A stretch of 60,662 nt of DNA from a virus: positions 1 through 60,662 of IMG/VR virus record IMGVR_UViG_3300005340_000041. One strand, 5' to 3'. The translations under genes were made by a program, and so were the position numbers. The notes under the pieces were generated by a model. That model saw only the letters and a list, made by a program, of their open reading frames with translations. It was not told the origin of the DNA and did no database searches. Below are positions 457 to 59,815 of the stretch, in pieces. The stretch's first letter is position 1, and every line of letters starts with the position of its first letter.

Positions 457-485
457 AGTTTAGCACGAATTTTGGGTTCTGTCAA
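457..485 (-). promoter_or_regulatory. sigma70-like promoter candidate
   Basis: Reading the minus strand, a perfect TTGACA (485-480) is followed after 17 bp by TAAACT (462-457), four of six matches to TATAAT. It would start transcription about 30 nt before the ATG at 424, leaving room for the visible Shine-Dalgarno sequence. The -35 box overlaps the stop region of the gene at 482-661. Seen by eye only. Confidence 0.4.
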
Positions 486-36249: not shown

Positions 36250-36262
36250 TGATAGTATCCTA

Positions 36263-36344: not shown

Positions 36345-36355
36345 GTATCTTACAA

Positions 36356-44114: not shown

Positions 44115-44411
44115 TTATTTCTTCTTTCTAGAATGCCTCTCCACCTTAACCATTGCGGTCAATTCATCGTCATCCACACCAATCACCGGCAAACCTTTTC
44201 TAAAAGACTCTCCAGAATCTCTTTGGATATTTGGAGAATTATAAATAACTTGAATGGGCTGAAATACGATGAAATGCTGACTATCATCACTCTCTGCCAA
44301 CGTTCGCACAGCTTCGATCGCCTCATCTAATGATGCGATTTTAGCACTACTTCCCTGACTATTAACATCACACATATCTTCTACTGTGTCTTCTCCTACA
44401 ACAAGATACAT
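44115..44411 (-). CDS. hypothetical protein
   Basis: 98 residues: mixed beta/alpha start (MYLVVGEDTVEDM), DEAIEAVRTLAES helix, and a basic tail (ERHSRKKK). It directly precedes the gene ending at 43756 by two bases. Function unknown. Confidence 0.55.
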   Translation of the reverse strand: MYLVVGEDTVEDMCDVNSQGSSAKIASLDEAIEAVRTLAESDDSQHFIVFQPIQVIYNSPNIQRDSGESFRKGLPVIGVDDDELTAMVKVERHSRKKK

Positions 44412-45857: not shown

Positions 45858-48527
45858 TTATTTCAGTGCTGCCCAATCATACGCCGAGCTTCCCTTTGCC
45901 GCGATCGGCACAGACAGCTCCATAGATTGTGCAGCTTCATATACGACTCGTTGAATTACTTCGTCCTCAACGCCTTCTTGTGTCTCTAGAATCACTTCAT
46001 CGTGTACGGTCAACAAAGGTTCACAATAAACTCCTTTCTCCCAATATTCCGGCAATACATTGTCCATAATTCGTTTGAGCCAGATTTTCAGCAAACCAGC
46101 AGCCGTCGACGTAACCGGCATATTAGCTGCCCACTTACGGGATTCTTCCCGGACACGATCAACACAGCTCCATACGCCCTGAACGTACCGACGACGGCCG
46201 AACAAATCTTCTACGTATCCAACAGATTCTGCCTGTGTATGGCAACGATCTATATAGTCTCTAACTCCGGGGTATGCTTCAAACCAATTGTTAATATAGT
46301 CAACACATTCATCTTTCGTGGTCGTAATGCCCAACAGTGCTAACTCACTATTCAACTTTCCAGCACCGCCGCCGTACATAATCAGAAAGTTGATTGTTTT
46401 ACTAAGCAAGCGTTCCTGTGTAGTAATTAGCTCCATCGGCTTATTGTAAATTAAAGACGCAGTTGCTCTGTGGATATCTTTCCCGGTACAGAATACGTCG
46501 ATCATATTTTGATCTTGGGAAAGATGCGCCGCAACGCGCAGCTCAATTTGGTCTAAATCCACAGAGACCAACCGGCATCCCGGTCGGGGGATAAATCCTT
46601 TACGTATGAGTCTTCCACGTTCTGAGCGTGTTGGCTGATTTTGTAGGTTTGGATCACGCGATGCCAACCGCCCCGTATGCGTAACATGGAGCAGAAATCG
46701 TGTATGAATCCAGCCATTAACATCCGCGTATCCCGGCAAAGTTTCAACATATGTGCCTAAAAGCTTAGATAATTCACGGTAATCGGTGATAATATCAACG
46801 GCTTCTCTAACGTCAGCGCGTCTAACATTCTTAATCTTCAGCGTTTCTAGCGTCTTTTCATCGGTAGAGCGCTTTCCGTGAAGTGTCTTAACCTTCAGAA
46901 TGTCGTATATAAACTCGGCGGTTTGTAGTGGCGAAGCAGGATTAATTGGCTTACCAGCCAATATAGTCAACTTCTTGCTCAACTCTTCCTGCTCACCACG
47001 AAACTGTACTTCTAAATTCTTAAAATGCTCTTTGTCAATCAATATGCCATTACGCTGCATACGATCGATAATAGGAATGATCCCCTTATCGATCTGATAT
47101 ACGTTCCACAAACCTTCCCGCCTAACAATCGGCGCCAGTTTATTGAACGTTCGCAGTGTAATATCTGCGTCTGCCGCTGAGTAATTCACCGCTGTTTCAA
47201 GTGGCACATCATCCAGCGTAACCTCCCTCATTCGCCCGATGTGATCTTCAACAGTCGAGCGAAGTGTGTTGTCAATCGATGTCCATCCTTCTCTAAGCCC
47301 AGTTCCACGTTCAAGTAACCCGCGTACGATTCGACCAATACTTCTAGGCTTAGTGACTCGCCCAACTCCATTGTTGTCGAAGACGAGTTTTGGAGCCGGG
47401 AGTGGCCACCCTGTTCCATCTCCTCCACATACGGAGCATTTTTGAGATTTAAGTTTGGCTGGTTGTCGTTTGTAGGGGACAAGCTCTTCTCCTGTTCCGC
47501 TACATAGGATGCATATGTTTTTGAGAACGAGTTGGAGATATTCTCGACAGATTTTCTCTTCGGCTTCTTTGACGACGTTTTCATAGTGCGGTTGTTTTAT
47601 CCCAAATAGTTTAAACGCTAACGGCTTCAATCCTCGGGGTAAGTGAGGCAGCAGATATGCCAAAAGCATCGTATCTTCAACACGATCAAGAGGAACAGGC
47701 GTATGTAACGCTTCCAATACCGGTATATCGTATAAGGCATTGTGCATTACGACTCGTTCCCGGAACGCCTGTCTTATGGCATCTTTGGCGGGACTGTCCT
47801 CACTCCCCCGAAGAACAAACGCGCGCCCCTCCTCAGCGCTGATTGAAAGACCCCACGGCTGCGAAACAGAACCTTCCGTATCCACCGCCACTAGGGCCGG
47901 TTGACCAAGTGAGAAATTGTCGTCAACCTCACTATAGTGTAGTACGCCTTGCGGCTCATAGCAAGAAATTTCACCACGGATCAGACGACCGACTTGCTGA
48001 AAATCCCAGAAAATCTGCTGATAATAACGTTCTGCCTGATGTAATCCTGCTGCCGGGTGTAAGCACACAATCATTCGCTTATCAGGATATCGTGGACAGA
48101 TCATCGGTACACCATGAATCTCGTCCATATTCACATCATCCCAATTTCCAGCACGAATATCTTTTACCCACTGTGTGAACGAATCACCATCAGACAGCAA
48201 CCAGCGTGCGGCAACCTTGCCCACTGCAATAATGATCTCTGGGTCACAGACCATTATTTCGGCCATCAGCTCTTCTTCATCACGCTGAATGTCAATTTCG
48301 GTCGGATCAGAGTCGTCTTCATCTGTACGATATTTGACTACATTAGTGATCGCAAAGTCCGACCGGCGCATTTTCGCAGCGCGTTTGAGATATACCCATT
48401 CAAGATCAGCTCCAGCGGCGCCCTGAAACGGGATACCGCTATTCGCCTCTACTTTTCCGGGTCCTTCCCCAATAATTAGATACTTACAGGGAAGCTTTCC
48501 CCAAATTGGAACCTTACGACCAATCAT
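45858..48527 (-). CDS. uracil-DNA-glycosylase/exonuclease/DNA polymerase A fusion
   Basis: 889 residues. Residues 1-185 look like a family 4 uracil-DNA glycosylase (GEGPGKVEANSGIPFQGAAG 20-39; TNVVKYR; LHPAAGL 156-162). A 3'-5' exonuclease follows (ExoI VAVDTEG 213-219, ExoII HNALYDIPVL 262-271, ExoIII YSAADAD 449-455), split by a zinc-finger insert (C339-x2-C342, C364-x2-C367). The family A polymerase has motif A SVDLDQIELR (655-664), motif B with K710 and Y718, and motif C VHDEV (841-845). The glycosylase part also holds DSFTQWVKDIR (115-125), like the FVxxVR tail. Confidence 0.9.
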   Translation of the reverse strand: MIGRKVPIWGKLPCKYLIIGEGPGKVEANSGIPFQGAAGADLEWVYLKRAAKMRRSDFAITNVVKYRTDEDDSDPTEIDIQRDEEELMAEIMVCDPEIIIAVGKVAARWLLSDGDSFTQWVKDIRAGNWDDVNMDEIHGVPMICPRYPDKRMIVCLHPAAGLHQAERYYQQIFWDFQQVGRLIRGEISCYEPQGVLHYSEVDDNFSLGQPALVAVDTEGSVSQPWGLSISAEEGRAFVLRGSEDSPAKDAIRQAFRERVVMHNALYDIPVLEALHTPVPLDRVEDTMLLAYLLPHLPRGLKPLAFKLFGIKQPHYENVVKEAEEKICREYLQLVLKNICILCSGTGEELVPYKRQPAKLKSQKCSVCGGDGTGWPLPAPKLVFDNNGVGRVTKPRSIGRIVRGLLERGTGLREGWTSIDNTLRSTVEDHIGRMREVTLDDVPLETAVNYSAADADITLRTFNKLAPIVRREGLWNVYQIDKGIIPIIDRMQRNGILIDKEHFKNLEVQFRGEQEELSKKLTILAGKPINPASPLQTAEFIYDILKVKTLHGKRSTDEKTLETLKIKNVRRADVREAVDIITDYRELSKLLGTYVETLPGYADVNGWIHTRFLLHVTHTGRLASRDPNLQNQPTRSERGRLIRKGFIPRPGCRLVSVDLDQIELRVAAHLSQDQNMIDVFCTGKDIHRATASLIYNKPMELITTQERLLSKTINFLIMYGGGAGKLNSELALLGITTTKDECVDYINNWFEAYPGVRDYIDRCHTQAESVGYVEDLFGRRRYVQGVWSCVDRVREESRKWAANMPVTSTAAGLLKIWLKRIMDNVLPEYWEKGVYCEPLLTVHDEVILETQEGVEDEVIQRVVYEAAQSMELSVPIAAKGSSAYDWAALK

Positions 48528-48810
48528 CTACAATCCCTGCCTTTTTGCGAACCTGTCTAACAAAAACCGTTAATTCATCTTCAACAAATTCCCAATACTG
48601 ACGCCGATACGCAACTTCAGGCGAATCTATCACAACTACATCCCCGATCTGATAATGATGATGCTCATATCCTACTGCTAACACCCTACCTTTTGCATTT
48701 TTAGTTTTATCCGACGGAATCTCGGTTATTCTGAACTCCGCACCAGCCTCAGCTCTCCCAAGCCAACGAATAACATCCTCAACTTGGAGCTTCCTATTGT
48801 TATCCTGCAT
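48514..48810 (-). CDS. beta-barrel-like protein with FVxxVR tail
   Basis: 98 residues. A beta-rich N-terminal part (EDVIRWLG...RITEIPSDKT...YQIGDVVVID) is followed by WEFVEDELTVFVRQVRKKAGIVDDWS, one of the best copies of the tail. It overlaps the start of the polymerase gene by 14 nt, so it is made just ahead of it. Function unknown. Confidence 0.75.
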   Translation of the reverse strand: MQDNNRKLQVEDVIRWLGRAEAGAEFRITEIPSDKTKNAKGRVLAVGYEHHHYQIGDVVVIDSPEVAYRRQYWEFVEDELTVFVRQVRKKAGIVDDWS

Positions 48811-48813
48811 CCT

Positions 48814-49257
48814 TTACTCCGATAATTCTAGTAGTACAGCTCTCGCTTCTTTCGCGCGTGTAGACTCCGTGCGAATCATAAGGCCGTCTGATACTACACG
48901 AACGCATCTCTGCGCTGTAGAGGGTTTAATTTTAACGGGAGAGTAATTCAGACAGAATTGGCAATCATTTGATGATACCGGAAAGCGCCAATTTGGACGA
49001 CTTTCGCCGCAAGTAAAGCAGCGTCTATGGGGTTCTTCACATCCGCAGAATTCACATGCACCATTCGCGCAAAATACGTGGTAGAGCAACTCACACGTAC
49101 AAGAGGTGCATACAACGCCGTTATCAGCCTCGACAGCGACATAACAAATCGCCAGCTCGATAAAGATGTCTAATAGCGGATCGTATCCTAAGGCTCTCTC
49201 AGAGATTTGTATATCTTCTGCGCCTTGGTCTTCCCAACACCCGGAATTTCCGTCCAT
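48814..49257 (-). CDS. multi-zinc-finger protein
   Basis: 147 residues from ATG 49257 (GGAG upstream), overlapping the ERCC4-type nuclease gene by 70 nt. At least three Cys pairs lie in the middle (CTSC, CEFCGC, CFTC, CQFC), which look like several small zinc knuckles or ribbons. It has no FVxxVR tail. Nucleic-acid or protein binding is likely. The long overlap makes the start uncertain. Confidence 0.5.
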   Translation of the reverse strand: MDGNSGCWEDQGAEDIQISERALGYDPLLDIFIELAICYVAVEADNGVVCTSCTCELLYHVFCANGACEFCGCEEPHRRCFTCGESRPNWRFPVSSNDCQFCLNYSPVKIKPSTAQRCVRVVSDGLMIRTESTRAKEARAVLLELSE

Positions 49258-49934
49258 GCTGATATCTCCGCATTCACCATATCTACAATCGTGGGGAAAT
49301 GAGCAGCAACACGCTTACTCAATTCATCACCAATTCCGGGAATCGAGGCCGCTATGAGCCTCTTTGTAGATGGTTTGTGGAGAAGTGTAGGCTGCTGTGA
49401 CTTATCCAGCCTAAATGCCGACGAATGCTTTTCATAGTCCTTACCCCACAAATGATACAGATTGAGAATCATTGAGGCAGACTCAGAACGATCTATAGAA
49501 CGTTTGATAACAATTCGCCCGACTTCAGCGATGGAGTTTAGCCAGTTATCAAACGCTCGATAGGTTGTTTGAGAGAATGACGACCATAACGGCTTGCCAT
49601 CTTTCCACGTCCGGAACTGTAGAATACCATTAGAACTCTCACCATACTCTCCTTCTATAAGAATGTACACCCGCTTATAGATTTGGGACATCTTCGGAAG
49701 CTGTTCGCCGGTGAGCCGCCCATCATGCATACACTGTAGCGCTTCTTTAGCCGTCTTATACTCTATACCAATAGGCATCGTAAACGGCCCCTCTGGTCCG
49801 CAGCCGAAAAACGCCGCATCGCCAGCATCTAGTGTGGTACGTTTACAAATATCTGGAGGGAGAAGAGGGATTAAACCCTTCGATCCCGCTCTACCATCAA
49901 TTAGGAGCAATTTGCTTCCTCTCTGGTTTGCCAC
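49188..49934 (-). CDS. ERCC4-type nuclease with helix-hairpin-helix motifs
   Basis: 248 residues. XPF/ERCC4-like core: LLIDGRAGS (10-18), GDAAFFG (38-44) and IGIEYKTAKE (56-65), where IEYKT replaces the classic ERKT. Two C-terminal helix-hairpin-helix motifs (IPGIGDELSKRVAAHF and IPGVGKTKAQKIY) bind DNA. It probably cuts branched or flap structures in recombination with the RecT-like and PD-(D/E)XK proteins downstream in the cluster. Confidence 0.85.
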   Translation of the reverse strand: MANQRGSKLLLIDGRAGSKGLIPLLPPDICKRTTLDAGDAAFFGCGPEGPFTMPIGIEYKTAKEALQCMHDGRLTGEQLPKMSQIYKRVYILIEGEYGESSNGILQFRTWKDGKPLWSSFSQTTYRAFDNWLNSIAEVGRIVIKRSIDRSESASMILNLYHLWGKDYEKHSSAFRLDKSQQPTLLHKPSTKRLIAASIPGIGDELSKRVAAHFPTIVDMVNAEISAWTEIPGVGKTKAQKIYKSLREP

Positions 49935-50128
49935 ACAAAAGCTTCAGAATCGTCCATCCAACGTGGATCATCCAAGGAGCGCAATTGGTATTCTACCATC
50001 CGACTAAAAGGGGTGTCTTCTAAAACTAAGCGAGCTATCAAGTACTTCCTGTCTTCCTCTATTTGCACTATCCTCCACCTAGTTCCTGATGGGGTCCATA
50101 TAATTGTATCTCCTACTTCATACGACAT
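49901..50128 (-). CDS. beta-barrel protein with FVxxVR-type end
   Basis: 75 residues, ATGA-coupled to the gene before it. It starts SYEVGDTIIWTPSGTRWRIVQIEED, a small SH3-like beta-barrel pattern, and ends WMDDSEAFVWQTREEANCS, a divergent copy of the tail. It overlaps the nuclease gene by 34 nt. Function unknown. Confidence 0.65.
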   Translation of the reverse strand: MSYEVGDTIIWTPSGTRWRIVQIEEDRKYLIARLVLEDTPFSRMVEYQLRSLDDPRWMDDSEAFVWQTREEANCS

Positions 50129-50379
50129 TTCGCTTTCCTCCGCGCTGACTTTACAAACTCTCCAAAATCGTCTAGTTCGACAAAACCTTCATCTATTGTC
50201 GGACTCCTAATAAGCTCTCCCCTCCGATACGTAACTGATCCTTCGTACTCTCTTTTATTTCTTCCGGGTCTCAAGCACTTCAATGTCCAATTATTAAACT
50301 CGTCTTTACCTACAATTTCCCATTTGGAATTATATGCACAAGCCCTCTTCCATTGATAAACGTCCCCAATCTCCGGCAT
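50113..50379 (-). CDS. beta-barrel protein with FVxxVR tail
   Basis: 88 residues. It starts PEIGDVYQWKRA..., like the 49901 and 194 proteins, then a beta-rich domain (KWEIVGKDEFNNWTLKCL) and ends VELDDFGEFVKSARRKAKCRMK. It overlaps the next gene by 16 nt. Function unknown. Confidence 0.7.
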   Translation of the reverse strand: MPEIGDVYQWKRACAYNSKWEIVGKDEFNNWTLKCLRPGRNKREYEGSVTYRRGELIRSPTIDEGFVELDDFGEFVKSARRKAKCRMK

Positions 50380-50382
50380 ACC

Positions 50383-50643
50383 TCATTCTCCGATTCCTGC
50401 CTTAGCTCTAACTTCGTGCACAAATTCTTCTAGCTCGTCTACAAGCTCCCATTGCTCACTAGGCCATTGGACCCTAGTCTGAACACCTACTTTATCCTTA
50501 TATTCCTCACTATTTCCCGCTGAAACCAGAGTTCCCATACATCCGAAACCAGTTATAGCAGTCAAATCTATATCCCATACTGTAGTATGAGCAGAACGCC
50601 TCCCTGCCCTATTCGGCTGCGGAACCATCCATCTATATAACAT
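50383..50643 (-). CDS. FVxxVR-tail protein
   Basis: 86 residues. N-terminal part with an RRSAHTTVWDIDLTAITGFG segment, probably beta-rich, and a tail WELVDELEEFVHEVRAKAGIGE. It lies immediately after the RecT-like gene. Function unknown. Confidence 0.7.
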   Translation of the reverse strand: MLYRWMVPQPNRAGRRSAHTTVWDIDLTAITGFGCMGTLVSAGNSEEYKDKVGVQTRVQWPSEQWELVDELEEFVHEVRAKAGIGE

Positions 50644-50645
50644 AC

Positions 50646-51485
50646 CTACAACCTCGCTACATTCACTACGTACTTTCCATTGATCACTGTATAATCCACA
50701 AACACACTATCCTGTTTCTTTATAGCCTCAAAGGCCGCATTCTGCGTATCCTTACCCTGAAAATACCACGTACGATTATTTGCGTCTAATACTTCGATCG
50801 TATCGTTGTTATTATCAGCCCCACGAATATCCATAACCTGTATGACATCCGATCCTGTAGGATTCTGCTTAGGAATCAGGATATTCTTTGCGTCCGCGAA
50901 GGCCGAAGTTCGAGCATTAGGAATCGTCTCAACTTCGGTCTCGTCCAGCTCGCCAAGACCACAAAGATGGAGAATCGTTCTCCGCGTCGCTTTTGTCACG
51001 GCTTTAAGGCGAGCATTGCCGAGCATATCGCCCGAAAGCCCCTCGATTTTCGCGTAGCCTTCATCCTCATGCTGCCGTCCGTCCGGATACCACGCGCGAA
51101 CTTTGACGATCAGCAACCCACTCCATTCACGCTCTTCGGTCACTGCTGTACTAATTTTGTGAATCGCACGAAGCTGAGCCGCACACGCCTTATTCGCATA
51201 TAGCACTTTTTTACCTTGCAGCGTAAGAACATCGAATGGCTTGGACGCGGGATCAAGACCCATAGACTGACAACGATATACATAATAACTGGTCAGATCG
51301 CTTTGAGAGAGCTTTGACAGATCACCGTTAAGAATAACGGAATTAATCACATCCTGAGAAATATACGGACGCGTTCTCTGCACAACGTCTTCCAACGGGT
51401 CAGGCTCATCGCCAATAATTTCCGGCTCAATTGGTTGGATCAGATTTGCTGGAGGTGTTGGAAGCTGCCGTTTCGTTGTTGCCAT
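50646..51485 (-). CDS. RecT-like single-strand annealing protein
   Basis: 279 residues. LSQSDLTSYYVYRCQSMGLDPASKPFDVL and LKAVTKATRRTILHLCGLGELDETEVET follow the RecT/phage SSAP pattern, including the KAxTKAxRRxxLxLxGLG helix. It would anneal homologous strands in recombination or replication, together with the nearby exonuclease-type proteins. The end (about 210-279) is a beta-rich domain. Its start overlaps a zinc-finger gene by 59 nt. Confidence 0.75.
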   Translation of the reverse strand: MATTKRQLPTPPANLIQPIEPEIIGDEPDPLEDVVQRTRPYISQDVINSVILNGDLSKLSQSDLTSYYVYRCQSMGLDPASKPFDVLTLQGKKVLYANKACAAQLRAIHKISTAVTEEREWSGLLIVKVRAWYPDGRQHEDEGYAKIEGLSGDMLGNARLKAVTKATRRTILHLCGLGELDETEVETIPNARTSAFADAKNILIPKQNPTGSDVIQVMDIRGADNNNDTIEVLDANNRTWYFQGKDTQNAAFEAIKKQDSVFVDYTVINGKYVVNVARL

Positions 51486-51750
51486 TATTTTCTTTCTCCC
51501 GCTCTTCTCTTAGTGCTTTACGTCGTGTGTTAATTTTATCCACAACTTCCGGGTAAAGCTCCGCCGCAATCTCTGCAATATCAGCCATAATAGAAATCGC
51601 TTTAGGAAGCTCTGTAACGAGTATATTATTAATCTGGATTGCCGCTCTAGCAGAAGCGACAGTCGAATTCATCCAATTTGTACATCCACAACGCACACAA
51701 GACTTATCGCTATGTGGACTATGCTCACACACCACACAAATCGCTTCCAT
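51427..51750 (-). CDS. zinc-finger/helical protein
   Basis: 107 residues. An N-terminal zinc motif (C5-x2-C8, C18-x2-C21) is followed by a helical bundle-like stretch and a charged, disordered C-terminus (EREKENNGNNETAASNTSS). It overlaps the RecT-like gene by 59 nt. Function unknown; a partner of the annealing protein is possible. Confidence 0.55.
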   Translation of the reverse strand: MEAICVVCEHSPHSDKSCVRCGCTNWMNSTVASARAAIQINNILVTELPKAISIMADIAEIAAELYPEVVDKINTRRKALREEREKENNGNNETAASNTSSKSDPTN

Positions 51751-51982
51751 TTTCTTCTCTTACCTCTCTTACCCAGTCAGCAAAATCATCCTCTAAGATC
51801 CAGTTTTCTGGATACAAAGGTTGTGCTGAAAAACGCAATCCTACCCGCCAATGACATTCTTTATTACTCTGTACACACCTAATAGTTGCGCCTTCAGATT
51901 CACTAATCGATTCTACTCTCCACATAGAACCGTCTTCTCTGTAAGATAAAAGGTCCCCAACTACTGGTCGACTAGTTAACAT
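51725..51982 (-). CDS. beta-barrel protein with FVxxVR tail
   Basis: 85 residues from ATG 51982. It starts SRPVVGDLLSYREDGSMWRVESI, a beta-barrel pattern like the proteins at 50113 and 49901, and ends WILEDDFADWVREVREENGSDLCGV. A longer frame from 52030 is not used. It is a clear tail-family member. Confidence 0.7.
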   Translation of the reverse strand: MLTSRPVVGDLLSYREDGSMWRVESISESEGATIRCVQSNKECHWRVGLRFSAQPLYPENWILEDDFADWVREVREENGSDLCGV

Positions 51983-51986
51983 AAAC

Positions 51987-52310
51987 TCACCAAAATTCCT
52001 TTGATTCCCGCTGTAACCCTTGTTGCACATCTAATCCGGCCTTACGCACACGATCCAAATAATTCTGCACGAAAGCAAATTCAGTCATTGGGATATCGCC
52101 GTAGCAAATAATCGTGACCATCGCTGTATTCTGAGTGCCTTCGTTAGCTTCAATCGCAATGTGAAATTCGTTCGCTTTATTAATTAGGTATTCTGCGGCA
52201 ATTTCGGCAGCAGTTTCCGTAGGATATACAACTCGTATACCGTTTGCTCCCTGCCAGATGATTACTGAATTACCGTCTGCTTCTGCCTCATATAGTTTTC
52301 TTTGCGCCAT
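51987..52310 (-). CDS. hypothetical protein
   Basis: 107 residues, alpha/beta, with TAAEIAAEYLINKANEFHIAI and a helical LDRVRKAGLDVQQGLQR end. It lies between two tail-motif proteins but has no such tail itself. Function unknown. Confidence 0.55.
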   Translation of the reverse strand: MAQRKLYEAEADGNSVIIWQGANGIRVVYPTETAAEIAAEYLINKANEFHIAIEANEGTQNTAMVTIICYGDIPMTEFAFVQNYLDRVRKAGLDVQQGLQRESKEFW

Positions 52311-52512
52311 CCACCCCTCCCTCCCGAACTTTTAAAACGAATTCCACTAAAGGATCTGTGTACTCCCAATATTCACCTACTTCATTGAAGAATTCTCTAA
52401 CCATATCACTGCACTTTGGACAAGTATCTACCAAATTACGACAACCAAACTTATCCACATGAGTCCATTCTCGTTCACACAAGTCACAATAATGCAACCT
52501 ATTGCCCCTCAT
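52288..52512 (-). CDS. zinc-finger protein with FVxxVR tail
   Basis: 74 residues. N-terminal zinc finger YCDLCEREWTH...CPKC and the ending WEYTDPLVEFVLKVREGGVDG. The ATG overlaps the previous stop (ATGA). It shares the C-x2-C-x3-W-x-H...C-x2-C core with the proteins at 55646-56676 and 58236. Confidence 0.7.
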   Translation of the reverse strand: MRGNRLHYCDLCEREWTHVDKFGCRNLVDTCPKCSDMVREFFNEVGEYWEYTDPLVEFVLKVREGGVDGAKKTI

Positions 52513-52640
52513 ACCCCAGCCTCATCACGGACATCAACAACCCACAGCGAAAACTCATCTAAAGAAATATTCAAGCGTCTACGCTCTTCGTCTGTGAGTC
52601 CCAAATTCAAGATGTCAGAAACTTTGCGCGCAGCCTGCAC
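52509..52640 (-). CDS. 43-residue FVxxVR-tail protein
   Basis: From GTG 52640, with AGGAAAG upstream: MQAARKVSDILNLGLTDEERRR..., ending SLDEFSLWVVDVRDEAGV. The short N-terminus is helical with no zinc motif, so this is almost only the tail motif. The stop overlaps the next start (ATGA). An in-frame stop lies just upstream. Confidence 0.6.
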   Translation of the reverse strand: MQAARKVSDILNLGLTDEERRRLNISLDEFSLWVVDVRDEAGV

Positions 52641-52655
52641 GCTTATACTTTCCTG

Positions 52656-52931
52656 TCAGCCCCAACCCGTATAATCGCACCCAGCGGAAATAGACAAATA
52701 GCGCCCGTCAGCAAGCTTAAACACTCCTACCCAGTCAGCTCCGTCATTTTCGCCTTCAACCAACGCAAGAATTTCGGTAACGTCCTGCAAGTAGATAAGA
52801 GCATTTACAGCTTTAGGGTCCTCTCCGAGCACAGGTTTAGGATACCCCGCATTCTCAAATATATACTTCCAGTCATAGCTTTCTAGGAAATCAGAAGGAG
52901 TCAATTCTTTAGTAAACAAACTTGTATCCAT
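52656..52931 (-). CDS. hypothetical protein
   Basis: 91 residues, acidic, alpha/beta, with VLGEDPKAVNALIYLQDVTEIL and a C-terminal beta stretch ending CDYTGWG. ATG-coupled to the nuclease gene before it (TAATG). Function unknown. Confidence 0.55.
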   Translation of the reverse strand: MDTSLFTKELTPSDFLESYDWKYIFENAGYPKPVLGEDPKAVNALIYLQDVTEILALVEGENDGADWVGVFKLADGRYLSISAGCDYTGWG

Positions 52932-53581
52932 TACGCGGTACTCCCAACTAGAATCCTACGTTCCTGCATATGCTGCCAGTGATCCCGGATATTCTGCCAA
53001 TTCTGTCGGACTTCTTCTTCTGTCCATTGTACACAAATTGGATTGATTACGTTGTCGGAAACATGCCACACGCGGAATACGGCCTTAGTCATACCAAAAA
53101 TTGCAGCATATGAACACGCCTGCCACAGCCATTCTGGGCGTCGTGCTTGTATATCAAACCCACGATAGCGCATCGCCGTAGCCTTCCATTCTTCGACGTG
53201 GAATTCTTGCGGATTGATCGCATCCGGGGTCATATAGATGCCGTCTAGTTGGCATTCCCCGGGACGGATTAGCGCGCTAGGCAGCTCGGCAACGCCAGCG
53301 GCAAAATGCTTGCTAGCGGATTCCTCGATGTTGTGCCGGGTCCATTCTTCGGTATCGCAGAACTCCTTAACCATTCGCTCCCATAGAAATCCACGTTCAT
53401 ATAGCAAATGCTGTTCTTCAGGAGTGAATTGCTTGCCTTTAACTTTCCGCTCAATCCCGGCGGTTATCAAGCGATCTTTGATAATTGAGGAAAGATGAAT
53501 GCCCTTTGATCGGGCGGCATCACGTTCTACAGACAGCGATATCGATTTAACGTCAAAAGGAATCTGTGTAATTACCGGCAT
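52931..53581 (-). CDS. PD-(D/E)XK nuclease
   Basis: 216 residues. YERGFLWERMVKEF (E68), CQLDGIYM (D113) and HVEEWKAT (E131-W-K133) form the catalytic set, followed by QACSYAAI (Q154, Y158) as in Cas4/RecB-type nucleases. Probably a processing exonuclease for the recombination or replication system. It has no Shine-Dalgarno sequence; TAAAAT lies 9 nt before the ATG, with a -35 box beyond it. Confidence 0.8.
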   Translation of the reverse strand: MPVITQIPFDVKSISLSVERDAARSKGIHLSSIIKDRLITAGIERKVKGKQFTPEEQHLLYERGFLWERMVKEFCDTEEWTRHNIEESASKHFAAGVAELPSALIRPGECQLDGIYMTPDAINPQEFHVEEWKATAMRYRGFDIQARRPEWLWQACSYAAIFGMTKAVFRVWHVSDNVINPICVQWTEEEVRQNWQNIRDHWQHMQERRILVGSTA

Positions 53582-53590
53582 AATTCTATG

Positions 53591-53619
53591 ATTTTACCAG
53601 TAATTAGCATATATTACAA
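53591..53619 (-). promoter_or_regulatory. promoter candidate before the PD-(D/E)XK gene
   Basis: Reading the minus strand: TTGTAA (53619-53614), 17 bp, TAAAAT (53596-53591), then 9 nt to the ATG at 53581. There is no Shine-Dalgarno sequence, so a near-leaderless transcript is expected. It follows a strong hairpin, making a plausible end-then-start boundary of transcription units. Confidence 0.45.
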
Positions 53620-53634
53620 GTTAGAATCTCAAAC

Positions 53635-53667
53635 CGTTGGATAAGAGGGAAGAGAGCTTATCCAACG
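53635..53667. terminator. perfect 11-bp inverted repeat, terminator or operator
   Basis: CGTTGGATAAG (53635-53645) and its exact complement (53657-53667) flank an 11-base loop. It lies between the wHTH gene that ends at 53681 and the promoter candidate at 53591-53619. No U-run follows on the minus strand, so a rho-independent terminator is only one possibility; a protein-binding operator or attenuator is another. Confidence 0.4.
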
Positions 53668-53680
53668 AATCAAACTCTAG

Positions 53681-54034
53681 CTACTCAGGCACAGCACAAT
53701 TAAAATAGTACTTCTGATCCTTCGTAAACACCGTACCCTTCTTGGTCAGATGATGCAGCGAAAGACCAATCTGACTAGCTTTCATCTTCAGCCGTTCCGC
53801 AAGCTCCGCAATCGTCCACCCGTCACTGCCCTCCTGCAACACGGGGATGATTACATCGCTGATGCTTCCTGCATGCTTCTTAGTTGGAACCGTACGCGCT
53901 GCCGGAGTACCACTAACCAAGTTATTGATCTCGCTAACGATTTCCTCCTTTTGCGTCTGAAGATCCGCAATACGAGTATTCACTGAATCCAGTTTATTAC
54001 CAAGTCGTGCAAGTCGTTCGCCATAGGTTGCCAT
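53681..54034 (-). CDS. coiled-coil winged-helix-like protein
   Basis: 117 residues. A coiled coil at about 8-45 (LARLGNKLDSVNTRIADLQTQKEEI) is followed by a C-terminal helix-turn-helix (WTIAELAERLKMKASQIGLSLHHLTKKG, about 72-99). It probably binds DNA as a dimer and may regulate early genes. The next gene upstream (54221) also ends in a wHTH-like domain. Confidence 0.65.
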   Translation of the reverse strand: MATYGERLARLGNKLDSVNTRIADLQTQKEEIVSEINNLVSGTPAARTVPTKKHAGSISDVIIPVLQEGSDGWTIAELAERLKMKASQIGLSLHHLTKKGTVFTKDQKYYFNCAVPE

Positions 54035-54048
54035 GCTTTATTCCTTTC

Positions 54049-54249
54049 CTAATCTACCAATAGATCTTTGATTATTCGCTGCGCTTTACAGTCTATACAT
54101 TCCCGCTTGGATCTATATATCAGACGGCCAGTGGACGGCCACGCTCTAAATATTTGTGGATATTTCCACTCACCAGTCCAATCACGACCACAGGCGCAGC
54201 AGTGCCAGACTTCCAACCACTTACTGCTTAAGTGAGACAGTTTCTCCAT
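54049..54249 (-). CDS. zinc-finger protein
   Basis: 66 residues. CCACGRDWT and CIDCKAQ give a zinc site, with a long central stretch between. Unlike the proteins at 55646-56676, it ends KDLLVD, without the tail motif. Function unknown. Confidence 0.6.
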   Translation of the reverse strand: MEKLSHLSSKWLEVWHCCACGRDWTGEWKYPQIFRAWPSTGRLIYRSKRECIDCKAQRIIKDLLVD

Positions 54250-55030
54250 CGAACTGGAATTGCGGGTTGCTATTCACGATACTGGTAAGCTGCTCCTTAT
54301 CCCAGAGAGCGTAGGTGATCGGCTGCCGGAAATCTTTGTCAGTTCCTTTGCCAATCGACTCAAAGTAGCCATTCAACTTTGCCGGAATCTGATTACGAGT
54401 CAGGGAATTGTTGTTTTCCATAAGGATCGAGGTCAGCGCCTGAGTAGCGGCGTCAACAACGCTCGACTCGACGGCGGGAGTCTGCGGCGGCTGATAGCTA
54501 CCGGTCATGACGGCTTCGGTCGATTCGATGCGGCTCGCCTCACGTTCGGCACGGCGGCGGAGAGTCTCTTCGAGCGCGGCTTCCCACCCTTCCGGGTGAT
54601 GCTTTTTTGGATAGATTTTGCGCGCCGATCCCTGAGAATGTGGATTCTGATCCATTGTCATAAAGAACGTCTCATTCTCAAAGACAGAGATATCATCCGT
54701 GATTCGTTCGCTCGGGAATCCGGCTTCGTTAATAGCTTTCTGGAGGAAGTAATGTGCGTCAGACTTGCTGCTAATAATCTTAGTCAGGCGCTTTCCGTCT
54801 TCAGAGACAATGCCGTCTTCCCATGGAATCCCGGTTGACCACATCCGCTCAAACGTGTTCCCTTTGGTCGTTCCCATCGTCCACTGAATAGCGACTTTAG
54901 GATTTGCGCCTTCATATTCACGTTTGGCATACCGAGATGTTTTAACATTAACTAGTGCTGCAAATTCTTGGTTGTTTGTAAAACTGCTCTTTGGCTGCGA
55001 GGCGGGGTTGATGTTCACATACTTTGACAT
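54221..55030 (-). CDS. possible DNA-binding replication protein
   Basis: 269 residues. The N-terminal part (about 1-150) is of mixed beta/alpha type with DISVFENETFFMTMDQNPH. A charged helical linker (RRRAEREASRIES) is followed by a C-terminal helix-turn-helix/winged-helix-like region (SLTRNQIPAKLNGYFESIGKG). A single-strand-binding or origin role is possible by place; no motif proves it. Part of the gene (about 54460-54600) is GC-rich. Confidence 0.5.
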   Translation of the reverse strand: MSKYVNINPASQPKSSFTNNQEFAALVNVKTSRYAKREYEGANPKVAIQWTMGTTKGNTFERMWSTGIPWEDGIVSEDGKRLTKIISSKSDAHYFLQKAINEAGFPSERITDDISVFENETFFMTMDQNPHSQGSARKIYPKKHHPEGWEAALEETLRRRAEREASRIESTEAVMTGSYQPPQTPAVESSVVDAATQALTSILMENNNSLTRNQIPAKLNGYFESIGKGTDKDFRQPITYALWDKEQLTSIVNSNPQFQFDGETVSLKQ

Positions 55031-55059
55031 ATCGCTCCTTGCTGTAGTTGAGATTCTAT

Positions 55060-55299
55060 CTATTCTAACTCAACTGAAGCAGGCGTGTCAACAATTCCAG
55101 CGACTTTTCGTGTCTCTTGTACAAAGGAAACAAACTCGTCCTCATACCACCAAAACTTGGCATCCAAAGCCCACTCATGTGGATTACACGCGGGGCAGTC
55201 CTGCGTAAAACGCATTAGGGGTCGCTTCGGAGCCTCACATCCCACGTGTCCGTACCAACCATGTTTAGAGCAATTATGACGGCAATCTTTAGACGACAT
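55060..55299 (-). CDS. zinc-finger protein with FVxxVR tail
   Basis: 79 residues. Two Cys/His clusters (CRHNCSKHGWYGHVGC and CPAC) and the ending WWYEDEFVSFVQETRKVAGIVD, followed by a short extension. Last of the tandem zinc-finger/tail genes before the helicase-side cluster. Function unknown. Confidence 0.7.
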   Translation of the reverse strand: MSSKDCRHNCSKHGWYGHVGCEAPKRPLMRFTQDCPACNPHEWALDAKFWWYEDEFVSFVQETRKVAGIVDTPASVELE

Positions 55300-55510
55300 T
55301 TGCGGCCCTTCGTACAGCTTTTACGAACGTTGTAAGCTCGTCTTCCTCAAAGAAAAAGCCCAGCCTAAATCGTGGCTCGCACTCATTACAAGGCTGAGAT
55401 ATGCCTAAGGTAGACCGAAGACTAACGCAGCAGTTGGAATGCCCCCACCAACGATCACATAGACCGCACCAATGCTTAGCTATTTGCTCCTGCTTCTCTT
55501 CAACGGCCAT
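55289..55510 (-). CDS. zinc-finger protein with FVxxVR tail
   Basis: 73 residues from ATG 55510 with GGAGGGAG upstream. WCGLCDRWWGHSNCC...CNEC is a zinc site, and the end is FFEEDELTTFVKAVRRAANVV. Overlaps the next gene by 11 nt. Confidence 0.7.
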   Translation of the reverse strand: MAVEEKQEQIAKHWCGLCDRWWGHSNCCVSLRSTLGISQPCNECEPRFRLGFFFEEDELTTFVKAVRRAANVV

Positions 55511-55662
55511 ACTCCCTCCGCTTTTGTCCATTCTTTCCGAGAATCATGAATTTCTGTGCGAGCAATATAAACCTGTATACACTGCGGGCAGAAATCGCTT
55601 CTATAATTTATGTTGTGTATAGGACAGCGTTTGCCGTAAAGCCAGCTAATCAAGGATCTCAT
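55480..55662 (-). CDS. small zinc-binding protein
   Basis: 60 residues. CPIHNINYRSDFCPQC gives a C-x2-H with C-x2-C pair. No FVxxVR tail. It overlaps both neighbours, which is usual in this cluster. Function unknown. Confidence 0.55.
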   Translation of the reverse strand: MRSLISWLYGKRCPIHNINYRSDFCPQCIQVYIARTEIHDSRKEWTKAEGVWPLKRSRSK

Positions 55663-55858
55663 TTAAAGCCTTCTCAGAAGTTTTTCGGCAAGTCTTAACG
55701 AAAACTGTAAAATCATCCTCGACATAGGACCAACCCGGTGTTCCTCGATCGTCGCATTTAGGACAAATGCGTAGACCACTATCCTTATGCCGCAAAGAGC
55801 AGCCCTCGTGCGTCCACTCATTTCCGCACAATTCACAGTCGTGGTATACACTCGCCAT
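55646..55858 (-). CDS. zinc-finger protein with FVxxVR tail
   Basis: 70 residues. Zinc core C8-x2-C-x3-W-x-H-x2-C...C-x2-C (DCELCGNEWTHEGC, CPKC) and the ending SYVEDDFTVFVKTCRKTSEK followed by a helix (ALNEILD). It is a paralogue of the proteins at 56058, 56261 and 58236. Confidence 0.75.
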   Translation of the reverse strand: MASVYHDCELCGNEWTHEGCSLRHKDSGLRICPKCDDRGTPGWSYVEDDFTVFVKTCRKTSEKALNEILD

Positions 55859-55861
55859 ACG

Positions 55862-56065
55862 CTACCCCTCTATATCCATTAGCTCGAAGATTTCATAGAA
55901 GCTCTTATCTACCGCCTCATCAAGCATATCTCTTGTCCAATGTTTATTAGGCTGCAAATCCCCGTGTTCTAGCGCGCCCTTCTTAAACTTATCAATGAAT
56001 ATAATAAGCGCGCGCTTATGCCGGGGTGAAAGGTCACCGACATAGACGTAATCAGGATTAGACAT
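55862..56065 (-). CDS. hypothetical protein, weakly MazG-like
   Basis: 67 residues from ATG 56065, just inside the previous gene. GALEHGDLQPNKHWTRDMLDEAVDKSFYEIFELMDIE recalls the second half of MazG-like nucleotide pyrophosphohydrolases (EExxD and YEI), but it is far too short to be sure. Function unknown. Confidence 0.4.
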   Translation of the reverse strand: MSNPDYVYVGDLSPRHKRALIIFIDKFKKGALEHGDLQPNKHWTRDMLDEAVDKSFYEIFELMDIEG

Positions 56066-56264
56066 TTGCGGCCTTTCGTGTTTCGCGGACAAACTTAGTT
56101 AGTTCGTCTTCTACGTACTCCCAAAAGCCTCCGCCTACAATAGCAGCCACATCAAGGCGTTCATAATCCGAATCTGCACACTCAGGACAAGTAAGGTTTG
56201 GAGATGTATTGTCGCATAAAGGATGTGTCCACTCCAAACGGCATTTATAGCACAGATGGCTCAT
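56058..56264 (-). CDS. zinc-finger protein with FVxxVR tail
   Basis: 68 residues. CYKCRLEWTHPLC...CPEC and the end FWEYVEDELTKFVRETRKAANV. ATGA-coupled to its upstream paralogue at 56261. Between finger and tail lies a variable acidic linker. Function unknown. Confidence 0.75.
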   Translation of the reverse strand: MSHLCYKCRLEWTHPLCDNTSPNLTCPECADSDYERLDVAAIVGGGFWEYVEDELTKFVRETRKAANV

Positions 56265-56479
56265 ACTTTTAATGCCTCTCTAGTCTTACGCACAAATCGG
56301 GTTAGTTCATCTTCAGTGTATTCCCACCAACCACCGCGCAGCATAACTAGTGCGTCTATGTCATACAATTCTTCCTGTGACACAGCACATTCGGGGCAAG
56401 CAGTATCCTCTTCCAGAGGTGAAGTTATACACCCACTATGCGTCCATTCAGACTTACATTTTGGGCACATATGACTCAT
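56261..56479 (-). CDS. zinc-finger protein with FVxxVR tail
   Basis: 72 residues. CPKCKSEWTHSGC...CPEC and WWEYTEDELTRFVRKTREALKV. Its nearest relative is the next gene at 56058; the two are probably a recent duplication. ATGA overlaps on both sides. Confidence 0.75.
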   Translation of the reverse strand: MSHMCPKCKSEWTHSGCITSPLEEDTACPECAVSQEELYDIDALVMLRGGWWEYTEDELTRFVRKTREALKV

Positions 56480-56676
56480 ACCAACCCCGCTTCTTTGCGT
56501 GTTTTCCGTACGTAGACTTCAAAATCGTCAACATAGTACCACAGGTCGCTAGAAGCTTCTGTAAGTACACATGACGGACATGGTAAAGGACTCCCATCAG
56601 AACGAAAACCCTGATCTAGTGTATGATTATGCTCCCAACGTTTACCACAAAACACACATTCATGTGCAATAAGCAT
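56476..56676 (-). CDS. zinc-finger protein with FVxxVR tail
   Basis: 66 residues from ATG 56676, with AGAAAGG eight bases upstream. CVFCGKRWEHNH...CPSC and the end LWYYVDDFEVYVRKTRKEAGLV. It starts two bases past the end of the helicase gene and is coupled to the two paralogues after it. Confidence 0.7.
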   Translation of the reverse strand: MLIAHECVFCGKRWEHNHTLDQGFRSDGSPLPCPSCVLTEASSDLWYYVDDFEVYVRKTRKEAGLV

Positions 56677-56677
56677 A

Positions 56678-58249
56678 TCAAAGCCTTTCTGCCGGAGTGG
56701 GCAGTTCTGTAACCCTAACAACCGCTGAGCGTATCCAATCGGGGAGCATGTTCTTATGTTGGCCCAGATAAGCGCCAAACGCTTTATCCGTAATCAAACA
56801 TTCATTTCTATCGTCTTTAGAGCGCATAGCACGGCCGATTGATTGCACTAGTTTTAATCCCGCATCGTACCATCCATAATCCGGATTATCTTCACTGCGA
56901 GCTTTGTGTAGAGGGTCTGTGATATCTGCAAAGGGGATCTTAGGAATAATCGTATATTCGGCTAATGTTCCCGGCAAATCAATCCCCGTCATCCAATTCG
57001 GGCCAACGAGAATTGCGGGGTCAGGAGCAGCTTTAAATCGCTGAAGTGTTAACGTAGACGCTGATGAAGCGGCGGATGAACTAGCAATCATGAGATTTGC
57101 ATACCGGGAGTATTTTAATAGCAGCTCAGTGCGGGCATAAGATACTGTATGTATTATCCCCTTACGATCTAACCGCTGTGAGATAAAATCGTCTACTTCT
57201 TTCACCCATTGGCGCTCTTCGTCCTCTGACATCCCATACTTCATTTTAATTACAGGATAATAGTATATAGGACGCCGCTCAATTGGGAATGTAGATGGAT
57301 AATTATAGAAATCCATATCCTGATCTAATATCCCAAGAAGCCGGAGCGTATTCGGCACCATCGTAGAAGAAGCACAGATTACTTTAGCCGCATTCGTGAA
57401 TAATAAAGGCTCGGCATACTCATGCACCCAAATCGGCTGAAATAGTATATGCTGCTTCTCGGGGAACACACGCCATTCCGACGACATCATACGCAACCGC
57501 GAAAGATGGCTCTCTACGGACTGCAAAGTACGCAGCTTAACTAATTTCTTTCTCTTTCCACGCGCAATCTCTCGCTTCTCCAACCGCACAGCAGCACGGA
57601 TTAGCGGTAGCTCACGATTCGCCCAATGAACCCACATAGCTATATTCGTATTTGTAGGCATCTTGGATGTAGTGAGATTGCCATAACATCGCGGAAACTT
57701 AACTGCCAACATACGAGTTAGCCATTGTTCCATCGTATGGCATTCGTCAGCGCATATGATATCGAACTGTCCCCAACCTTCGGTAAACATATTGGCGGAT
57801 ATCCACGCCGCATAATTAGTGACTACCAACTTCTTATACTTTGCAGCATTAATCTTATCGTAGTAAGTACATCCTCTAAGTCTAAGGCTGCATTCATCGC
57901 CGAAATGACACGGTCCTTCAGCCACAGACTTAGCTGGTGTACCATCGTAGAATTCGCCGCCGACGTCCATCGCCTTACAGCGATAGTTACTTTTTCCGCG
58001 AATATCCAAAATGTCCAAATATTTGAACTGTTCCGCATACTGTTTTTGCAACTCCTTCGACTCGGTCAGGATCAAGGCCCGCCCGCCCGATGCGAGCGCC
58101 GCCCCAACGAGGGAGATCGACTTGCCACCGCCCGTGGGCACGCAATGCGCCGAAAAGCGCCTCGCCGAAGACAGCGACCGCGCGATGACGTCAAACTGCC
58201 CTTCCCGCCATGCATCAACCAACAGACCGAGATCATTAGGAGTTGTCAA
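56678..58249 (-). CDS. XPD/DinG-like SF2 helicase with iron-sulphur cysteines
   Basis: 523 residues from TTG 58249, with AGGA upstream; a TTG at 58282 is less likely. Walker A PTGGGKS (38-44), a DECH Walker B (168-171), and four cysteines (C91, C114, C120, C127) in between, as for the FeS cluster of XPD/DinG helicases. Motif VI-like QSIGRAMRS is near the end. It probably unwinds DNA in replication or repair. The first 180 bases of the gene (about 58070-58210) are notably GC-rich. It replaces a conventional replicative helicase, which is not seen in the window. Confidence 0.85.
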   Translation of the reverse strand: MTTPNDLGLLVDAWREGQFDVIARSLSSARRFSAHCVPTGGGKSISLVGAALASGGRALILTESKELQKQYAEQFKYLDILDIRGKSNYRCKAMDVGGEFYDGTPAKSVAEGPCHFGDECSLRLRGCTYYDKINAAKYKKLVVTNYAAWISANMFTEGWGQFDIICADECHTMEQWLTRMLAVKFPRCYGNLTTSKMPTNTNIAMWVHWANRELPLIRAAVRLEKREIARGKRKKLVKLRTLQSVESHLSRLRMMSSEWRVFPEKQHILFQPIWVHEYAEPLLFTNAAKVICASSTMVPNTLRLLGILDQDMDFYNYPSTFPIERRPIYYYPVIKMKYGMSEDEERQWVKEVDDFISQRLDRKGIIHTVSYARTELLLKYSRYANLMIASSSAASSASTLTLQRFKAAPDPAILVGPNWMTGIDLPGTLAEYTIIPKIPFADITDPLHKARSEDNPDYGWYDAGLKLVQSIGRAMRSKDDRNECLITDKAFGAYLGQHKNMLPDWIRSAVVRVTELPTPAERL

Positions 58250-58475
58250 CGATTCCTGCCTTCTTTCTCGTAAAAGAAACAAACGCTGTTAGTTCGTCAT
58301 CTACATAATTCCAGCTAGAGCTAAGCAGCTTTTCTTGTGTGGGCTGTCCTTCTGGAATATCAGCATAACAAAGCGGACACGGGAAAGGATACCCACCTCT
58401 TGAGCATCCACCTACAGTGCAATCGTCGAACTTCCACTCTCTTCCACACACTCCACAAACATGAAATTGACTCAT
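58236..58475 (-). CDS. zinc-finger protein with FVxxVR tail
   Basis: 79 residues. CGVCGREWKFDDC...CPLC and SWNYVDDELTAFVSFTRKKAGIVD. GGGAG lies just before the ATG. It overlaps the start of the helicase gene by 14 nt. Family member as above. Confidence 0.75.
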   Translation of the reverse strand: MSQFHVCGVCGREWKFDDCTVGGCSRGGYPFPCPLCYADIPEGQPTQEKLLSSSWNYVDDELTAFVSFTRKKAGIVDNS

Positions 58476-58750
58476 ACTCCCGCCTTTATCCTAGTATCCT
58501 TTACCCATTGAATAAACGGATCGTACTCCTGACATTCTGTTTCTTGATCAAGATCGGCAGTCCAGAAGATGTGATCAGGTTGATATGGATACTCAGGATC
58601 AACCGTTGGGTCCCCACAATCTGGACAAACAACTCTAATAAATATCGCCTGATCAAACAGAAATAGGCCATTAGAATACCATGGTCTACGGCATTTAGGG
58701 CACTTATACCCAAAGCCTAACTTATACTTTTTCATCGTCGTCGCCGCCAT
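58472..58750 (-). CDS. zinc-ribbon protein with FVxxVR tail
   Basis: 92 residues (ATG 58735 is an alternative start). Zinc ribbon CPKCRRPW...CPDCGDP, a variable linker with PYQPDHIFW, and CQEYDPFIQWVKDTRIKAGV at the end. Overlaps the next gene downstream by ATGA. Confidence 0.7.
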   Translation of the reverse strand: MAATTMKKYKLGFGYKCPKCRRPWYSNGLFLFDQAIFIRVVCPDCGDPTVDPEYPYQPDHIFWTADLDQETECQEYDPFIQWVKDTRIKAGV

Positions 58751-59105
58751 TTGCTACATAGATACTATCGTGTAATACAATCACATGCACCCTACCGCGT
58801 TGTTTAACTTTTCTATTCGAATCAAAGAACGCATGTGGCAGAGACTCAAACAGCTTTTGCGGAATCGTATCAAACGGATATTCGCTATCTGCCCATTCCG
58901 GAATAATACTATCCTTCGGAATCTGCGTAGCCGCGTTCGCTGGCACGTGCATAGCCAATCCATACCAAATTCGCCGCTCGCACGAAGAACATGTTAGGCC
59001 TATTGTTGCCGGACGGATGGTTGTTTCATTTATATGCGCGCAATAGATACACGACCAATAAAGGACGCCATTGAATTGCACGCGAGGATAATAAATAGGT
59101 AGCAT
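58722..59105 (-). CDS. zinc-ribbon protein
   Basis: 127 residues. CIYCAHINETTIRPATIGLTCSSC gives a zinc ribbon near the start, followed by a charged domain and an acidic end (NGGDDDEKV). No tail motif. Overlaps the next gene by 29 nt. Function unknown. Confidence 0.55.
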   Translation of the reverse strand: MLPIYYPRVQFNGVLYWSCIYCAHINETTIRPATIGLTCSSCERRIWYGLAMHVPANAATQIPKDSIIPEWADSEYPFDTIPQKLFESLPHAFFDSNRKVKQRGRVHVIVLHDSIYVANGGDDDEKV

Positions 59106-59124
59106 ATTACGAATTCAGTTTTCC

Positions 59125-59367
59125 CTAAACAATCCGCTCAAGAATCATGCACTGATATCGTTCAGCTTGCTCCTTAGTAGTCCATTTCCATCGCTCGCCA
59201 GTCAAACTGCATGTACCATTACGGCAAACCAGTTCTCTACAGATAGTACACAGCTTACTAGTGCTGTCCCAAAGATCAGAGCTACACAAGCAAACGTGTC
59301 CCTCTAATTCAGCAAACACACGACTAACCTTTTGCTGTTCTTCTTTAGTGTGTTTAGATGTGCTCAT
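59125..59367 (-). CDS. small cysteine-rich protein
   Basis: 80 residues from ATG 59367, which overlaps the previous stop (ATGA). VCLCSSDLWDSTSKLCTICRELVCRNGTCSLTGERW has at least six cysteines. The next gene upstream shows the same order (CVCVSQS...LLCPVC...CGW...CRVTGE), so the pair are paralogues. Metal binding is likely. Confidence 0.6.
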   Translation of the reverse strand: MSTSKHTKEEQQKVSRVFAELEGHVCLCSSDLWDSTSKLCTICRELVCRNGTCSLTGERWKWTTKEQAERYQCMILERIV

Positions 59368-59561
59368 TGGGAAGATTCTCCGGTTACCCTGCATGGTCTA
59401 TCTTGCGTATCCCACCCGCATCCGCCCTTATAACAAACAGGACATAAAAGCCCAGCGGATTGAGATACACATACGCACTCTTCATTGTGATATAGAAATG
59501 TTAGGATTTTGTCTGCTTTTTCCCGCTCTTCTTCGCTTTTTCTTGACACTCTTTCACCCAA
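59364..59561 (-). CDS. small cysteine-rich protein, paralogue of the next gene
   Basis: 65 residues, opened by a TTG at 59561 that lies 61 bases inside the preceding gene; a GTG at 59549 is an alternative start, and no clear ribosome-binding site was found. Helical start, then the Cys-rich part ending CRVTGESSQ, like the paralogue downstream. Confidence 0.5.
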   Translation of the reverse strand: MGERVSRKSEEEREKADKILTFLYHNEECVCVSQSAGLLCPVCYKGGCGWDTQDRPCRVTGESSQ

Positions 59562-59815
59562 TATTCAAAATCATCCACTAACTCCCAACCTTCCCCATAT
59601 CCATTCTGTTTGTCTGTCCTGAAACAATCTTTGTATCCAATTTTATATTCTGAATCATACTTTACTTTAGACGCAAGGTGTTCTGGAGAACGCTCAACGA
59701 CTGTGTAATAGGCAATCGAACCCCGCACACAATCTACCCGAACAATCATGCGGTAGTAGCTACTACAAGGACTACCTCGCATCCATCTATAGTATTGTCC
59801 CTTTTTCGACACCAT
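59501..59815 (-). CDS. beta-rich protein with FVxxVR-type end
   Basis: 104 residues. Starts KKGQYYRWMRGSPCSSYYRMIVRVDCV, a beta-barrel pattern, and carries WELVDDFEYWVKECQEKAKKSG near the end, a divergent tail. AGGAATGG lies before the ATG. Function unknown. Confidence 0.65.
   Translation of the reverse strand: MVSKKGQYYRWMRGSPCSSYYRMIVRVDCVRGSIAYYTVVERSPEHLASKVKYDSEYKIGYKDCFRTDKQNGYGEGWELVDDFEYWVKECQEKAKKSGKKQTKS

Follow-up and report, generated by a model that had tools for sequence, protein, structure and literature searches.

The 60,662-base IMG/VR virus record IMGVR_UViG_3300005340_000041 (the window, analyzed at its full length), a soil phage, encodes many small proteins that end in nearly the same segment, here called the tail. 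The tail is conserved as a peptide, is spread over proteins with different domains and is confined to one strand. We predict that it acts as a portable docking helix by which its carriers bind one common partner, a reading to which we give a probability of about 0.5.

A C-terminal segment conserved at the protein level

The first-pass annotation had listed 20 places where small minus-strand proteins share a tail. All 20 were located in the window; 19 are intact C-terminal tails, and the copy at 643 is interrupted by TAG (carriers are named by their lower coordinate, Table 1). The core reads D (19 of 19), [DEP], [FL] (18 of 19), x, x, [FWY] (19 of 19), V (18 of 19) or I, x, x, [VTCA], R (18 of 19). 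The aromatic anchor sits 11-23 residues upstream of the stop, and many copies have an aromatic strand (for example W-E-Y-V or W-E-L-V) ahead of the core. The consensus proposed earlier is corrected to the core D-x-[FL]-x-x-[FWY]-V-x-x-[VTC]-R; its A-G end is variable. The following gene often starts within this A-G end, which may thus double in part as a ribosome-binding site.

The tails are not random matches. Leave-one-out profiles recovered 19 of 19 tails, with E-values of 3e-9 to 0.23 against the 1,399 stop-to-stop open reading frames (ORFs) of the window (at most 0.03 for 18 of the 19; the tail of 49901 is the weakest). The full 19-tail profile gives the tails 26-37 bits, compared with a best score of 9.2 bits on composition-shuffled ORFs (20 rounds). 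Scored with a 12-residue matrix, also leave-one-out, every tail exceeds all 51,802 12-mers of two tail-free relatives. An unbiased all-against-all comparison of C-terminal 36-mers found 89 similar pairs in the window versus 4 after shuffling. Among related phages, the same comparison gave no excess over shuffle level in G006, G009, G010 and Tunturi_1, and a small excess in G008 was traced to proline-rich ends.

Where two tails have an identical degenerate residue, codons agree in 23.7% of pairs, and 23.4% is expected from usage. Because agreement is at the level of usage, it is the peptide and not the DNA that is conserved, and recent copying is excluded. We found no nucleotide similarity beyond the amino-acid constraint, as a DNA repeat or mobile element would give.

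All copies of the tail are within one block of genes. The plus strand carries virion genes (terminase, portal, capsid and others), and the minus strand carries a block of mainly small genes that includes a DNA polymerase, an ERCC4-type nuclease, a helicase and a weakly Rad52-like protein. We call this block early purely in analogy to other phages. On a simple gene list, the tail is carried by 22 of the 56 genes on the minus strand and by none of the 47 on the plus strand (Fisher p 2e-7), a count that is approximate because it includes a rejected Rad52-like segment and because overlapping genes were dropped from the list.

Structure models were built from paralogs alone for two carriers. The 56261 protein is predicted to be a zinc ribbon with a strand at residues 52-54 and the core helix at 58-69 (mean predicted local distance difference test score, pLDDT, 86), and the 48514 protein an SH3-like barrel with a strand at 73-76 and the core helix at 79-91 (mean pLDDT 78). 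In both models the core helix follows the domain. Its hydrophobic face comprises positions 2, 5, 6, 9 and 13. The acidic front and basic back described earlier are present in most copies as an acidic first half and a basic second half, but the amphipathicity claimed with them is only moderate (mean z 1.06).

Carriers, further copies and relatives

Nine tail proteins have a zinc ribbon in common. Their N-terminal parts are mutually related (mean z 5.1), and most have two CxxC-type knuckles (C-x2-C ... C-P-x-C), the first of which is altered in 55060. About seven more resemble SH3-like barrels and form a looser group (mean N-terminal z 2.0), with 194 and 50383 the least certain members. Between the two classes, the N-terminal parts show no relationship (mean z -0.01, none above 3), and those of the remaining carriers are unrelated to all others (mean z -0.04). 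Tail similarity is 25.8 between the classes versus 27.9 and 27.0 within them. The carriers are not one homologous domain family that includes the tail: their N-terminal domains are related within the zinc ribbons and partly within the SH3-like proteins, not across them. We found no convincing case of a zinc-ribbon or SH3 domain without a tail in the window and its relatives, and no recognizable domain in the 761 and 52509 proteins.

The best fold matches of the SH3-class model are SH3/KOW-like domains (Spt5, NusG and SPbeta YorP, 2heq). These are weak (best E 0.035) and share about 10% sequence identity, and the terminal shared helix lies outside the definition of that family. For the zinc-ribbon model, no known fold matched well.

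The N-terminal half of the 482 protein corresponds to part of this phage's portal protein in diverged form, LQMYRMGMIDSWTLYEAL aligning with LQLFRMGIMDIWSLSEVL (blastp E 1e-5 pairwise, and 8e-4 for the N-terminal part alone against all window ORFs). A portal fragment joined to the tail shows that unrelated segments can acquire it.

We also found copies that the first-pass annotation had missed, in the 44115, 41622 and 39234 proteins and probably in the DNA polymerase. The copy in the 41622 protein directly precedes two apparent hydrophobic helices. The degenerate copy in the 44115 protein scores 13.8 bits, equalled by one null 12-mer in 866,000.

The polymerase aligns over its full length with that of G006 (39% identity). 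The segment DSFTQWVKDIRAGNWDD is the sole insertion of at least 10 residues in the window polymerase relative to G006, which lacks residues 115-131. It sits in the N-terminal domain, which resembles uracil-DNA glycosylases (Pfam UDG 6.8e-18); solved family 4 glycosylases (e.g., PDB 1ui0) also match this domain only as far as the insertion point. At 16.2 bits, the insertion 12-mer outranks each of the 865,964 null 12-mers from other contigs (maximum 14.5). Because the full tail profile, a hidden Markov model, gives it only 5.8 bits, we grade this copy as probable, not certain. Two other candidates were rejected. The helicase segment EDEERQWVKEVD (14.4 bits) is not an insertion relative to G006, where a corresponding segment aligns with it, and the Rad52-like DLTSYYVYRCQ segment was judged part of that protein's own family pattern.

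None of five related phages (G006, G008, G009, G010 and Tunturi_1) has the tail, by profile search and by comparison of C-termini. These tail-less relatives include a syntenic 63-kb phage. The portal of G006 is 52% identical to that of the window, and its polymerase, nuclease and helicase are in the same order; the portal of G010, a partial genome, is 50% identical. A wider set of 22 records gave no tail match, and the identical search gave 23 copies in the window. The nearest isolated relatives are Tunturi_1 and Tunturi_2 (portal 24%, major capsid protein 28%), Tunturiibacter phages that are podoviruses of Acidobacteriota (PMC11924767). No tail copies were found in the Tunturi phages. As these relatives infect Acidobacteriota, an acidobacterial host is plausible for the window.

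The tail has no significant match in Pfam, PHROGs or PADLOC, and the tail members match no Pfam family. Against the PDB, the best E-value of the tail profile is 0.82, which is not significant, and we found no description of the motif in the literature. As first suspected, no described family emerged from these sources, and the segment appears to be absent from catalogs of known tags. Searches for relatives with the polymerase and helicase as single proteins found nothing, an alignment search with the polymerase returned G006 again and no other record, and portal and capsid alignments found no relatives among bacterial genomes. The tail proteins had no credible tblastn match among phage records. 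A scan of IMG/VR with degenerate tail DNA patterns gave only single scattered matches that we judged to be chance, including C-termini of terminase neighbors (L006-L015) and a lysozyme-like structural protein (L005-type contigs). The terminase-adjacent protein in L006, L007, L010-L012, L014 and L015 ends in (E/A)DELMAFVKKARK, and its core match is seemingly due to chance.

Table 1. Tail carriers and further copies of the segment in the window
Protein	Position (strand)	Copy	Remark
SH3-like(?) protein, 76 amino acids	194..424 (-)	EDPFDAYVKDVRKSAGL	tail
59-amino-acid protein	482..661 (-)	EDEFETFIKFVRADFG	portal-like fragment LQMYRMGMIDSWTLYEAL plus tail
Interrupted copy	643..723 (-)	PDEFDEFVKYARAEYGRELWDPED	TAG separates it from the upstream frame; end nearly identical to that of the 482 gene
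125-amino-acid protein	761..1138 (-)	EDPFYRWVKEVRRENGG	tail
130-amino-acid protein	39234..39626 (-)	EDEFENWVREVR	internal copy at 39462-39497
178-amino-acid membrane protein	41622..42158 (-)	EDEFTKFVMETR	internal copy at 41856-41897
98-amino-acid protein	44115..44411 (-)	DDDELTAMVKVERHSRKKK	degenerate C-terminal copy
DNA polymerase	45858..48527 (-)		UDG-like N-terminal domain, exonuclease and family A polymerase
Polymerase residues 115-131	48135..48185 (-)	DSFTQWVKDIRAGNWDD	insertion, probable copy
SH3/KOW-like protein	48514..48810 (-)	WEFVEDELTVFVRQVRKKAG	tail
SH3-like protein	49901..50128 (-)	DDSEAFVWQTREEA	weak tail
SH3-like protein	50113..50379 (-)	LDDFGEFVKSARRKA	tail
SH3-like protein	50383..50643 (-)	WELVDELEEFVHEVRAKAG	tail
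SH3-like protein	51725..52030 (-)	WILEDDFADWVREVREENG	tail
Zinc-ribbon protein	52288..52512 (-)	WEYTDPLVEFVLKVRE	tail
43-amino-acid protein	52509..52640 (-)	LDEFSLWVVDVRDEAGV	scarcely beyond the tail itself
Zinc-ribbon protein	55060..55299 (-)	WWYEDEFVSFVQETRKVAG	tail
Zinc-ribbon protein	55289..55531 (-)	FFFEEDELTTFVKAVRRAAN	tail
Zinc-ribbon protein	55646..55858 (-)	WSYVEDDFTVFVKTCRK	tail
Zinc-ribbon protein	56058..56264 (-)	WEYVEDELTKFVRETRKAAN	tail
Zinc-ribbon protein (modeled)	56261..56479 (-)	WEYTEDELTRFVRKTRE	tail
Zinc-ribbon protein	56476..56778 (-)	WYYVDDFEVYVRKTRKEAG	tail; start uncertain, perhaps ~56673
Zinc-ribbon protein	58236..58475 (-)	WNYVDDELTAFVSFTRKKAG	tail
Zinc-ribbon protein	58472..58750 (-)	EYDPFIQWVKDTRIKAGV	tail
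SH3-like protein	59501..59815 (-)	WELVDDFEYWVKECQEKA	tail
Example tail peptide		GGFWEYVEDELTKFVRETRKAANV

Other features of the genome

The window has no end repeats. The terminase large subunit is encoded by two ORFs (432 and 301 amino acids) at 1969-4169 (+) that overlap at 3264. The terminases of G006, G008 and G010 also match as two separate pieces, with gaps of roughly 150-600 bases, and that of Tunturi_1 is a single gene of 2172 bases.

The genome appears to encode a sugar-nucleotide pathway (4166-5110, 32444-33640, 33637-34326 and 40582-41640), with an SDR dehydratase/epimerase-like protein, an aminotransferase-like protein, a cytidylyltransferase-like protein and a NeuB-family synthase. 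The synthase matches Pfam NeuB (8e-68), and the other three were assigned by sequence judgement. Together they suggest that a nonulosonic acid, for example pseudaminic acid, is made. There is a DUF6551 protein with a weak likeness to DndB/ParB at 44513-45355 (-). Three tRNA genes (Ile-TAT, Leu-TAA and Thr-TGT) at 35120-36428 (-) flank a 354-amino-acid ORF (35185-36249) that we could not identify, and the sequence of the protein at 37135-37611 (-), which includes CAGLFDGEGCIQI, resembles a homing endonuclease of the LAGLIDADG type by inspection.

A proposed docking motif and its alternatives

The helix recurs in zinc ribbons, in SH3-like barrels, on a portal fragment, before transmembrane helices and probably as a polymerase insertion, and it does so on the early strand only. 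A common docking site, as the first-pass annotation had suggested, is the best-supported reading of this pattern, although the carriers are not some twenty unrelated proteins, as it had supposed. The D cap, the F2-[FWY]5-V6-[VT]9 face and R10 are kept whatever the carrier domain, which favors docking, as a mere structural cap would not need it.

The invariant Asp would cap a short helix, and the face F/L-x-x-[FWY]-V-x-x-[V/T] together with the near-invariant Arg would fit a single groove on the partner. The motif would have been placed mostly at the C-termini of small early zinc-ribbon and SH3/KOW-like proteins, and also on a gene fragment, within a membrane protein and apparently as a loop of the polymerase. 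Small zinc-ribbon and SH3-like domains belong to kinds for which nucleic acids or polymerases are frequent ligands. By binding one partner, the tail may bring small, probably nucleic-acid-binding modules and the polymerase to one hub. This would most likely be a protein that belongs to the phage's replication or transcription machinery, to which the probable polymerase copy points; the hub could be the replisome. The wider proposal is that this phage lineage evolved its own portable recruitment tag, a helix that occurs on two dozen or more early proteins with various folds and in a polymerase insertion and that assembles its carriers at a single phage or host hub. We hold this tentatively, at somewhat under even odds.

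The closest parallel is phage T4, in which gp43 (the DNA polymerase) and gp55 and gp33 (late regulators) have similar, freely interchangeable C-terminal peptides that bind the sliding clamp (PMC2988020). In both cases unrelated phage proteins, including a DNA polymerase, would share a short hydrophobic and acidic peptide for one hub. T4 has three such proteins with the polymerase copy at the C-terminus, whereas in the window small tails occur on about 20 proteins and the putative polymerase copy is an internal loop. The window motif is longer than the T4 peptide and unrelated to it in sequence, and we do not assign it to the T4 class. No sliding clamp was recognized among the window genes scanned.

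Several points weigh against a docking motif. Two paralogous groups hold 16 of the 19 tail proteins, and within each group the tail could simply be inherited. According to the models, the tail supplies a predicted strand (W-x-Y/L-V) in both groups, and this strand may be part of the domain fold. The polymerase insertion is modest by the full tail profile. No tail-bearing relative that would show conservation over time was found among the sampled phages.

The main rival draws on some of these points. The segment may be an ordinary structural beta-strand and helix cap that was duplicated many times within two small-protein families, with a helix that packs against the domain it belongs to and needs no dedicated partner. 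Nine tails in one zinc-ribbon family and about seven in SH3-like proteins are consistent with this, as is the fair confidence with which both models end the domain in a strand and helix. However, the same sequence occurs in carriers without either domain (482, 761, 52509, 41622, 39234 and probably the polymerase), the tails of the two classes match where their N-terminal parts are unrelated, and the near-invariant Arg and N-cap Asp are independent of the domain. We consider a cap possible but rather unlikely.

Self-association, in which the helices bind one another and collect early proteins and the polymerase in a shared assembly or condensate, would make use of the hydrophobic face and mixed charge of the helix. 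It is improbable given the modest amphipathicity and a core of about 12 residues, which is short for a stable coiled coil, and it leaves the nearly invariant Arg unexplained. A degradation or processing tag that removes early proteins would suit a segment at the C-terminus of about 20 proteins, all on the early strand, but the variable distance from anchor to C-terminus, two or three internal copies and a probable copy on the polymerase, where a degron is not expected, make it very doubtful. In several cases a tail gene reaches or runs past the start codon that follows it, and the purine-rich RK-x-AG codons can act as the ribosome-binding site of that next gene. A DNA-level effect (a repeated nucleotide element or such a site for the overlapping gene) is nevertheless hardly credible and is excluded for the core, as synonymous codons are randomized, any ribosome-binding site would be downstream of the D-x-F-x-x-F-V core, and internal copies have no such role. 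Any influence of this kind would be limited to the A-G end.

The majority of small early phage proteins lack both a known function and recognizable partners. If the docking reading is true, the shared tag would at once tie some two dozen of them to a single process, and its partner would account for many orphan genes. The tag would, moreover, be an unusually large case of one interchangeable phage docking peptide, so far found on few proteins, as in T4.

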